NCBI GenBank assembly: GCA_021648685.1
Contig: JAKISI010000007.1
Location: 1 to 64,000, forward strand
Length of the DNA stretch: 64,000 nucleotides
Source of the DNA: Candidatus Polarisedimenticolaceae bacterium
GTDB lineage: Bacteria; Pseudomonadota; Gammaproteobacteria; Chromatiales; Chromatiaceae
Direction of reading: 5' to 3'
Shown here: positions 8,241 to 52,593 of the stretch, piece after piece
How positions within the stretch are numbered: the stretch's first letter is position 1
Layout of the letters: every line of letters begins with the position of its first letter
Program-made: the position numbers and the translations under genes
Notes under the pieces: generated by a model
Told to the model about the DNA's origin: nothing
Database searches by the model: none
Seen by the model: only the letters and a program-made list of their open reading frames with translations

Positions 8241-9064
8241 GAATCCTTTAGCATCTCTGATAACTCTATGGATCGGTCGCGGGCGTCGGTCAGCGCCTGT
8301 TTGAACAGTGGCAGAAGATCACCCTTATTCAAGGTCTGTAGTGCGGACTCGGTTGTGCCGCCGGGCGAGGTGACGCGCTGCCGCAGCATGGCGGGGCTCT
8401 CTGTGCTCTCCATGGCCATCTTGGCTGCACCCAGGGCGGTCTGCAAGGTGAGCAGTCTGGCAGTATCGGCAGGGATGCCCAGTTCGATGCCTGCAGTCTC
8501 CATCGCCTCCATCACCAGAAAGAAGTAAGCCGGGCCGCTGCCGGAGAGGGCGGTAACGGCATCCATCAACTCTTCACTGTCTACCCAGCGGGTCAGCCCA
8601 ACCGCACGCATGATGGATTCGGCCAGATCCCGTTGTGCGGTGGAAACCTGTGGGCTGGCGTGCAGCACAATGGCTCCGGTCTGGATCATGGCAGGGGTGT
8701 TGGGCATGGTGCGCACTAAAGAGAGATTGCCCCCCAGCCAGCCTTGCAGATCGGCCTCCCGGATGCCGGCGGCAACGGAGATCACCAGTGGCTTTGTCTG
8801 CTGTAACGTGCTGGCCAGCGAGTGTGCAGCAGACTGCATGGCCTGTGGTTTGACCGCCAGTATTACGATCTCTGCATTGGCGGCAGCCTGGGCATTTTCC
8901 GGTGTGGATTTGATTCCGAAATGGGCTGCCAGTGATGCCAGTTTCTCGGCATCAGGGTCGCTGACCGATATCTGCCGTGGGTCGTAACCACCGTTGACCA
9001 GGCCGCTGATTAGGCTGGCGGCCATATTGCCGCCACCGATAAATGCTAGGGTTTTTGTTCTCAT
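8237..9064 (-). CDS. proC: Pyrroline-5-carboxylate reductase
   Basis: ProC carries out the last step of proline synthesis, reducing pyrroline-5-carboxylate with NAD(P)H. The 275-residue protein starts with the dinucleotide fold AFIGGGNMAASLISGL and carries the C-terminal signature region GSGPAYFFLVMEAM and TSPGGTTESAL. ATG 9064 puts the glycine-rich loop at the usual distance from the N-terminus; the frame stays open upstream to 9241 but that part overlaps yggS and is not conserved-looking. Confidence 0.97.
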   Translation of the reverse strand: MRTKTLAFIGGGNMAASLISGLVNGGYDPRQISVSDPDAEKLASLAAHFGIKSTPENAQAAANAEIVILAVKPQAMQSAAHSLASTLQQTKPLVISVAAGIREADLQGWLGGNLSLVRTMPNTPAMIQTGAIVLHASPQVSTAQRDLAESIMRAVGLTRWVDSEELMDAVTALSGSGPAYFFLVMEAMETAGIELGIPADTARLLTLQTALGAAKMAMESTESPAMLRQRVTSPGGTTESALQTLNKGDLLPLFKQALTDARDRSIELSEMLKDS

Positions 9065-50722: not shown

Positions 50723-52480
50723 TCAGTTGCTCCATGTATAAGTTGCTTCCACTTTATTTCCTGGTTCACAGAATATAACTGATTTGCACAGCTCTTTGGT
50801 GAGCATCAGGCCGCGTCCACTGGGGATAGATGAATCGGTTTGAATGTTGGAGAGATAATTTTTGTAGTCAAAGCCAGAGCCACTGTCTTCAACCCGGATA
50901 ATAATTTCACCACCTGTTGAATATAGGCGGCTGTGGATGGATATGGTGATATATCCCTCTGATAATTCCTGGAGCCTTTTTTCCCGTTCTGTAAAGTAGG
51001 TTGTGAACCCTCCCGGTTCAGCCTTCAGGGTAGAGTCCAGGTTCAATATTCCGTGATCAAGTGCATTGGTGTAGAGTTCACTCAATATGGTAAAGATTAC
51101 TCTGCGCTGCTCTTTTAGGCTCTCCAGCTCCTGTATTTGGTTGATTAACAGTGGAACAGGGTCGACTTTCAACAAGCGGGGCCCCTCTAACTTAACCTCA
51201 AATCTCAGACTGTTGTGAGGTAAATCTGAGCCATCTTTCTGGATGGTCGCTTTGCCGTGGGTTGCAGGCAGTTCGTTATCGAGTGTCGCCAGCACATCCG
51301 GCAGAAATGGAACCTCTACCAGGCTGATGTCATCATCTTGAGGCGCATCAAGACAAAACTCCTCGAGGGCGGAGGCAATAGATTCAACGATGTTTCCCTG
51401 GTTTGTGCCTTGAGAGAGCTGCTGTTCCAATCTTTTCTGTCCAAAATACTCTCCATCCGGGCTTCTGGCCTCTGTTACCCCGTCGCTTGCCAGCAGGGCA
51501 CGATCCCCAAGGTCTGCTGTAATATTCGATATGGAATGGAGGTAGTCTTCATCGGGAATGATACCTAATGGCAGCCCGGCAGATGGAATGCGGTGTTTGA
51601 TTTCTGTGCCTGCTGCATTTGTGACCAGTATATCGGGCATGCCGCAGCAGCAAAGTGTCATGTTATCCATAGCGTGGTTGATGCGGACGAGCTGGGCGGC
51701 CATGAACATGCCGGTGGGGAGCAGGGCATGCAGTTTTCGATTGATTTCATTGAGGATCTGGTCAACAGAAAATCCTTTAACCGTCATGGCGCGAAAAGAT
51801 TCCGATACCGGCAGCGCTCCAAGTGCGGCGGATAGCCCATGCCCGGTAAAATCACCCAGCAGCACATTGAGGTCACCATTGGGGGCGTGGGCGGTTAAGA
51901 GCACGTCGCCACTGAAGAGCGCAGCGGGTCGCATGAGCGCCTTTAGCTTCTCTGGCATTACATTGCCAGCGATCACTGCCCCGCTAAATACTTTTTCGGC
52001 AATCTCCTCTTCACGCTCTCTCTGGCCTAAAAGAGTTGTCACTTCGCGATGGAGATCGCGAATCCTCTCCATTGCCTTGATCTTTGACCGGAGAAGGGTG
52101 TGGTTGAATGGTTTGGTCAGGAAGTCATCACCACCGACCTCTACGCATCGGGCGAGCGCCTTCTCATCTGTCATTGCGGTTAGAAAGATGACGGGTATAA
52201 AGGTATCGCCGCAGAGTGCCTTGATCTGGGCGGTAGCGTCAAAACCATCCATAATTGGCATCATGATGTCCATGAAGATGATGTCTGGCTGGCTCTCTTT
52301 AAAACGCTCAATCGCCTCTGCCCCATCTACCGCCTGGACAACGGTGTACCCTATTTTTTTCAAAAGGGCATTCAGGATGATGCGGTTGGAGAGCTCATCA
52401 TCGGCTATCAGGGCTACCCCGGCCGATGGTGGTGTGGATGGCTTGGTTAGTGAGGCAGGTGAGGTGCCTTGCATATTCAT
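50723..52480 (-). CDS. Response regulator with PP2C phosphatase and RsbW-like HATPase domains
   Basis: The 585-residue protein joins three signalling domains: an N-terminal receiver (phosphoacceptor D71 in FMDIMMPIMDGF, K in LTKPF), a PP2C/SpoIIE serine phosphatase (about 170-395; LLGDFTGHGLSAAL, DDDISLVEV) and a C-terminal HATPase_c (about 450-580; N-box ELYTNALDHG, G1 EDSGSGFD, SGRGLMLTKEL). The layout is like Pseudomonas HsbR, which sets the phosphorylation of an anti-sigma antagonist. No STAS antagonist gene is in the window. Confidence 0.9.
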   Translation of the reverse strand: MNMQGTSPASLTKPSTPPSAGVALIADDELSNRIILNALLKKIGYTVVQAVDGAEAIERFKESQPDIIFMDIMMPIMDGFDATAQIKALCGDTFIPVIFLTAMTDEKALARCVEVGGDDFLTKPFNHTLLRSKIKAMERIRDLHREVTTLLGQREREEEIAEKVFSGAVIAGNVMPEKLKALMRPAALFSGDVLLTAHAPNGDLNVLLGDFTGHGLSAALGALPVSESFRAMTVKGFSVDQILNEINRKLHALLPTGMFMAAQLVRINHAMDNMTLCCCGMPDILVTNAAGTEIKHRIPSAGLPLGIIPDEDYLHSISNITADLGDRALLASDGVTEARSPDGEYFGQKRLEQQLSQGTNQGNIVESIASALEEFCLDAPQDDDISLVEVPFLPDVLATLDNELPATHGKATIQKDGSDLPHNSLRFEVKLEGPRLLKVDPVPLLINQIQELESLKEQRRVIFTILSELYTNALDHGILNLDSTLKAEPGGFTTYFTEREKRLQELSEGYITISIHSRLYSTGGEIIIRVEDSGSGFDYKNYLSNIQTDSSIPSGRGLMLTKELCKSVIFCEPGNKVEATYTWSN

Positions 52481-52593
52481 ACTTACAACCTATTCTGTTA
52501 TTTACTCTGGGTTATGCGAATCACAGAGTGTAGCGGCACAGGCATGGATTAATTGAGGCACTATTGCTGGCCGTGTATAAATGAGTGGATTTG

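Follow-up and report, generated by a model that had tools for sequence, protein, structure and literature searches.

Some regulators that combine a phospho-receiver, a serine phosphatase and an anti-sigma-type kinase are encoded beside their STAS partner, and one whose gene stands alone raises the question of which partner it switches. The gene examined here lies in a window of 64,000 nucleotides (the whole stretch of DNA analysed, from contig C36 of a draft genome of a Candidatus Polarisedimenticolaceae bacterium), and the original prediction, made from the sequence alone, described its product as an orphan HsbR-like regulator, possibly connected to polysaccharide synthesis through the adjacent pgm gene. 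The reading proposed here is that the gene encodes a switch protein of the CrsR/HsbR type, whose STAS antagonist (STAS1 and/or STAS2) would be encoded in trans, in an F7-like che operon. This reading is given a probability of roughly 0.6. In its favour, the domains and motifs are intact, the genome encodes D-S STAS proteins, regulator and STAS genes co-occur across the family, the two are linked in most relatives, and sigma28-like sites are present. The regulator itself is of a known type; what is unusual is its split arrangement.

Domains and motifs of the regulator

The Pfam models Response_reg (E 4.5e-27), SpoIIE (E 3.8e-36) and HATPase_c_2 (E 6.5e-7) all match the regulator above their cut-offs, with a second HATPase model falling under its own, and the resulting domain order of receiver, PP2C and HATPase is that of CrsR/HsbR regulators (Table 1). 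The protein possesses the receiver residues D27/D28, D71, T101 and K123, the PP2C motifs SGD (190-192) and GDFTGHG (209-215) together with D333 and D383/D384, and the HATPase residues E468/N472, D532/G534/G536 and GRG (555-557), the functional roles of which we take to be those generally ascribed to such motifs. In an alignment of 66 homologues, D27, D71, T101 and K123 are kept in 57, 62, 58 and 61 rows, respectively, G191, D192 and D384 are each kept in 65 and D383 in 66, and E468, N472, G534, G536, R556 and G557 are present in every row. No PP2C or HATPase residue that was checked is kept in fewer than 62 of the 66 rows, and a segment of the HATPase domain comprising L481, S483, K486, G491, Y495 and R499 is conserved to the same degree (62 to 66 of 66). 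Catalytic and ligand residues are intact across all three domains, so that close alignment revealed no catalytic loss and the predicted combination of receiver, serine phosphatase and anti-sigma-type kinase in one protein was borne out; domains, motifs and co-occurrence likewise support the proposed HsbR-like class and a two-way action on a STAS partner.

A profile search of the same genome, a 2.95 Mb draft of 98 contigs that is 98.8% complete, returned the window regulator as the only SpoIIE match over cut-off, a second match on contig C51 lying below it. The best solved-structure match of the HATPase domain is SenB (PDB 9qih), a weak one (E 0.064), and an AlphaFold model of the regulator from a seven-row alignment was poor (mean pLDDT 52) and was set aside.

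Table 1. Positions of the regulator, its domains, its upstream site and the candidate STAS partners. Features without a contig label are numbered within the window; G000 is the genome of the window.
Feature	Position	Strand	Basis or context
REC-PP2C-HATPase regulator (CrsR/HsbR type), 585 aa	50723..52480	-	ATG start; ORF, Pfam and alignment
Phospho-receiver domain, aa 24-134, phospho-acceptor D71	52079..52411	-	Pfam Response_reg and alignment
SpoIIE-type PP2C serine phosphatase domain, aa 201-389	51314..51880	-	Pfam SpoIIE and alignment
RsbW/SpoIIAB-type HATPase (serine kinase/anti-sigma) domain, aa 466-580	50741..51085	-	Pfam HATPase_c_2 and alignment
sigma28-like site TCAA-N15-GCCGCTAC	52530..52556	-	fair match to the sigma28 consensus
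STAS1	G000:C67:14103-14411		tandem with STAS2, end of che operon
STAS2	G000:C67:14421-14723		tandem with STAS1, end of che operon

STAS proteins on a second contig and their co-occurrence with the regulator

The description of the regulator as an orphan holds locally, given that no partner gene is adjacent and that a genome-wide STAS search found no match on the window's contig, but it fails for the genome as a whole, where STAS1 and STAS2 are encoded on contig C67 and RpoS and FlgM elsewhere. The search for a STAS antagonist that the original prediction had proposed yielded six profile matches, three of which lie within a single gene row on C67 that reads cheY-cheA-cheW-MCP-cheW-parA-STAS159-cheR-cheD-cheB-MCP-STAS1-STAS2 (cheW and cheB named by eye) and ends with two small D-S STAS proteins. 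The acceptor D-S is kept in STAS1 and STAS2 and is invariant in all 89 STAS proteins gathered; STAS159 carries D-G in its place and was rejected as the regulator's substrate. Of the remaining matches, MlaB was rejected as partner because its gene lies among MlaD-, MlaC- and MurA-like genes (read by eye), and the two longest frames (613 and 547 aa) were set aside as SulP-type transporters by length only. The regulator lies 16.4 kb from the contig end on C36 and STAS2 14.4 kb from that of C67, which, the two being on different contigs, places the loci at least about 30 kb apart, given a correct assembly.

Three further features of the C67 operon were observed. Within the tandem (L009:14103-14723), STAS1 is the faster-changing protein, and only a subset of the relatives have it. 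In the middle of the operon, a parA-like gene abuts that of the D-G protein STAS159 (L009:8864-10098). The main MCP (L009:5660-8278) possesses NIT (nitrate/nitrite sensing) and HAMP domains, the NIT domain being a possible signal input for the array.

Each of several known systems resembles part of this arrangement. The SypE protein of Vibrio fischeri has the domain order kinase, receiver, phosphatase, unlike that of the window regulator, and shares with it the action of a dual serine kinase/phosphatase on a STAS protein, here SypA. This action on SypA is described in PMC8256260. The stage-1 F7 chemosensory cluster, as outlined in part of PMC7184735, ends with an anti-sigma factor antagonist followed by a serine phosphatase gene. 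The C67 operon, termed F7-like from its gene content, is similar to that cluster in content and order and in its terminal STAS gene, but the final phosphatase gene, which corresponds to the window gene, lies away from it, the operon additionally contains parA, a receptor with a NIT domain and a STAS protein in its middle, and no STAS gene was found before its cheY. Excerpts on Shewanella oneidensis state that che1 encodes CrsR and CrsA (PMC9855816), a system with the same receiver, PP2C and HATPase/anti-sigma domains and, as antagonist, a small STAS protein (PMC6482189, PMC9855816). A che operon of similar make-up ends with a homologue of the window gene in several cases, the likeness to CrsR being judged from descriptions, whereas the window regulator lies outside its che operon with an upstream site of its own, and an extra tandem STAS gene is present. 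HsbR-HsbA-HptB of Pseudomonas aeruginosa, again compared through descriptions, has its domains in the same order and likewise works with a STAS partner. One congener (G001) and some other relatives also carry an HPt gene beside the regulator; the window locus differs in having neither an HPt gene nor an adjacent STAS gene.

Regulator and STAS2 are strongly associated across genomes. In a class draw of 369 genomes (own genome included; regulator counted if full-length), 70 of the 71 regulator genomes hold a STAS2 relative, compared with 27 of the 298 others (Fisher 1e-51). In a near set of 55 genomes, likewise including the own genome (cut-offs E 1e-30 for the regulator and E 1e-6 for STAS2; overlap counted by hand), 24 possess the regulator, 25 possess STAS2 relatives, 22 possess both and 28 neither (Fisher 6e-10). 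The regulator occurs without a STAS2 match in G003, a member of the same genus (94% complete), and G029 (82% complete), and a STAS2 relative occurs without the regulator in G018 (40% complete), G034 and G047. In G047, a 99-aa ORF that matches the regulator (L184 1178-1477) adjoins the STAS gene, in the place normally taken by a full-length regulator.

Linked and separated loci in relatives

Among 75 full-length homologues from other genomes of the class (99 listed matches minus the own row and 23 partial matches), 62 are immediately preceded on the same strand by a small STAS gene, with a gap of -25 to 322 bp, and 12 of the 13 non-adjacent homologues have a STAS match elsewhere in the genome. 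Ten linked loci were inspected, nine of which carry chemosensory genes beside the regulator-STAS pair: a cheA-containing operon ends in the pair in L132, L134, L139 and L141, a soluble MCP lies beside it in L133, L135, L136 and L138, and cheR does so in L137, with no che gene in L142 (the STAS genes of L134 and L138 were taken from the separate STAS2 search). The pair also accompanies a full che operon in Vibrio sp. THAF191d (L295), where the regulator is 28-30% identical. Among 15 genomes with a separated regulator gene, che or MCP genes lie beside the STAS gene in 10; the other five have only a parA-like gene (G260, G012) or neither (G134, G350, G297). G134 presents the reverse case, in which the regulator still follows cheB and a different contig carries the STAS gene (L284, L271). 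These comparisons suggest that the orphan look of the window regulator is local and that its likely partners are probably encoded in a che-type operon elsewhere in the genome.

A quick phylogenetic tree was built from 66 regulators at loci whose DNA had been retrieved, which does not cover all of the 99 listed matches, and was rooted at the midpoint for drawing only; 24 of these regulators have no adjacent STAS gene and 42 are linked. G259 is ambiguous, as it was counted as non-adjacent among the 75 homologues and as linked in the tree through a weak match (32 bits). Left out of the tree were L210, L211, L216 and L218 (no full ORF), G031 (short match) and the congener G005, in which the regulator gene (L124 8024-9775) is broken by an in-frame TAG within the PP2C domain. 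The window's group comprises 21 rows, 19 split and two linked, with a support of 89, and the linked/split label requires four changes on the tree, three of which are forced by well-supported branches. Since a mostly split group sits within a mostly linked tree, separation from the STAS gene looks derived and recurrent. A search of mostly open-access literature found the split arrangement named in no title or abstract start.

Expression, input and output of the proposed switch

The original prediction had also given the regulator its own promoter, which is plausible, but the upstream site is sigma28-like and only a fair match, and scanning the gap that precedes the gene for sigma70-type sites returned no hit. 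The sigma28 (FliA) consensus is TAAAGTTT-N11-GCCGATAA. Read from the alignment, T[CT]AA-N15-GCCG[CT]TA lies upstream of the regulator with the same spacing in all six genomes of the genus. On a simple 16-point score against the consensus, 9 of 24 separated genes reach at least 12.5 (G001, G003, G017, G121, G025, its near-duplicate L046, G029, G015 and G144). Of 351 control upstream regions, chosen to exclude che, MCP, STAS and regulator genes, 5 reach this value, as does a single one of the 42 linked genes; when the motif is reversed, none of the 24 separated genes does. The Fisher test, run without L046, compared 8 of 23 separated genes with the 5 of 351 controls. At the window the site scores 11.5, and because 28 of the 351 controls also reach this value the site is supported by its conservation rather than by its score. 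Ten of the 24 separated genes score below 11.5, including G012, G016, G030, G069, G186, G297 and G392. A stronger sigma28-like site, TAAAGATT-N11-GCCGTTAA, is located upstream of cheY in the C67 operon, at a distance of 197 bp, and patterns of this type number 12 in the genome, some of them inside ORFs, versus 3 for the backward form. The genus-site pattern was searched as well; it was built from that site, so its exact match there is not independent. Promoter- and terminator-like scans at the regulator locus gave no more than in shuffles. Transcription of both units alongside the late flagellar genes would, if it occurs, mean that regulator and STAS proteins are made together despite a separation of at least about 30 kb.

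In Pseudomonas, HsbR is phosphorylated by HptB, with the genes in one operon, according to part of PMC5085249. An HPt gene (L120:4107-4484) lies between the regulator and a YciI gene in the congener G001, only the 3' end of such a gene is recognisable in G003 (L122 ~8841-9024, read by eye from sequences), and the window locus has no HPt gene, with 37 bp from the regulator to the next ORF; a phosphorelay gene is probably being lost within one genus. Among the 66 tree rows, the first downstream ORF is an HPt gene or HPt-bearing hybrid kinase in six (G001, G392, G025 and G016, all separated, and G250 and G318, both linked), and in G040 an HPt ORF overlaps the end of the regulator gene. The own genome has 14 HPt matches, 13 over cut-off, CheA included. 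A search there for an orthologue of the G025 hybrid kinase listed matches mainly to the kinase core (33-43% identity) and no cognate kinase. The CheA of C67 and the HPt-bearing hybrid kinases of the genome are candidate phosphate donors.

In the proposed mechanism, the HATPase domain would phosphorylate the STAS protein and could hold a sigma factor. Phosphorylation of the receiver, with the HPt of either the operon's CheA or a hybrid kinase as donor, would turn on the PP2C domain, and the STAS protein, once dephosphorylated, would change partner, whereby a sigma factor would be freed or held, most likely RpoS and perhaps with FlgM/FliA. The search for an anti-sigma target suggested by the original prediction found candidates in the genes for RpoS (451 bits, over cut-off) and FlgM (40.6 bits), and a probable FliA is encoded on C88. 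Excerpts of PMC6482189 report that the C-terminal domains of HsbR and CrsR interact with RpoS by two-hybrid and that HsbA binds FlgM. In the class draw, 54 of the 71 regulator genomes have an RpoS match at E 1e-110 and 17 have none, a weak association (p 0.04), and a universal RpoS target is disfavoured because those 17 lack a strong match. Such a match also occurs in every other genome of the draw with a split regulator of the window's group, seven in all (G012, G121, G392, G297, G069, G186 and G085), and of the group's two linked members G172 has an RpoS match and G338 does not. RpoS would be the likeliest output.

An HsbR-type output would instead act mainly through the STAS protein rather than the HATPase domain: unphosphorylated STAS would bind FlgM and free FliA for the late flagellar genes, with sigma28-like feedback and RpoS secondary. 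The presence of FlgM in the genome, the sigma28-like sites before the che operon and nine of the 24 separated regulators, the non-universal RpoS and the HPt genes directly downstream in G001 and G392, placed like hptB in the Pseudomonas hsbR operon, are all consistent with this output. It is nevertheless considered unlikely, given that most inspected linked loci are chemosensory, as for CrsR, and that tblastn with the own FlgM against the compared loci returned only two matches, both at the locus of that FlgM gene itself, a search that could miss a distant FlgM and in which 54 of the 66 regulator loci extend less than 5 kb on one side.

The trans-acting switch proposed here has two candidate partners on C67. 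The STAS protein beside linked regulators is closer to STAS2 in 27 of 42 rows and to STAS1 in 15 (one tie), and a FastTree of 89 STAS proteins places both among the linked ones, with longer branches for STAS1 and poorly supported deep nodes. Identity to the own protein is 73% for STAS1 versus 85% for STAS2 in G005 and 80% versus 95% in G004, STAS2 is 97% identical to that of G002, and G012 and G015 possess the regulator and STAS2 with no STAS1 detected. STAS2 is the more likely cognate partner on sequence grounds, as it is more conserved in the genus and is the one present in G012 and G015. The faster change of STAS1 within the genus, and its better match to the linked STAS protein in the 15 rows, would also suit a rewired regulator, fed by hybrid kinases through HPt rather than by the che array and partnered with STAS1 (a paralogue present in some relatives) or another protein, as would the HPt genes or HPt-bearing hybrid kinases that follow the separated gene in G001, G392, G025 and G016. 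Such rewiring appears improbable in view of the strong conservation of STAS2, its occurrence without detected STAS1 in the regulator-bearing G012 and G015, and a window locus that itself has no HPt gene.

The predicted link to polysaccharide synthesis drew on pgm, which lies upstream of the regulator on the same strand, 131 bp away. The genus has five other genomes, and pgm adjoins the regulator in four of them, the fifth (G004) having another ORF there, up to the contig end; at separated loci that belong to the same family (G017, G025, G012, G016, G029, G015 and G030) it is not adjacent; neighbours in relatives are Mla-like transport, LexA-like, vWA/BatA-like or che genes (named by eye). A polysaccharide or biofilm regulator tied to pgm by position is very improbable, and the functional link was rejected, because the adjacency is confined to the genus and the regulator gene has its own conserved upstream block. 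The neighbourhoods of relatives, as read from their genes, point to chemosensory (CrsR-like) rather than polysaccharide biology.

For the window's group as a whole, a possible though doubtful history is that the output switch of an ancestral F7-type array left the operon, many members having a sigma28-type promoter of their own and some a second STAS protein and HPt or hybrid-kinase input, while switch and array are still co-expressed. If true, a single lineage would document how an array parts from its stress or motility output without loss of co-expression. As a separate gene, the phosphatase can be deleted or exchanged with the che operon left intact, which makes the array's partner-switch target directly testable. 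'Orphan' regulators of the CrsR/HsbR class are better paired with their partners by co-occurrence and orthology than by adjacency.
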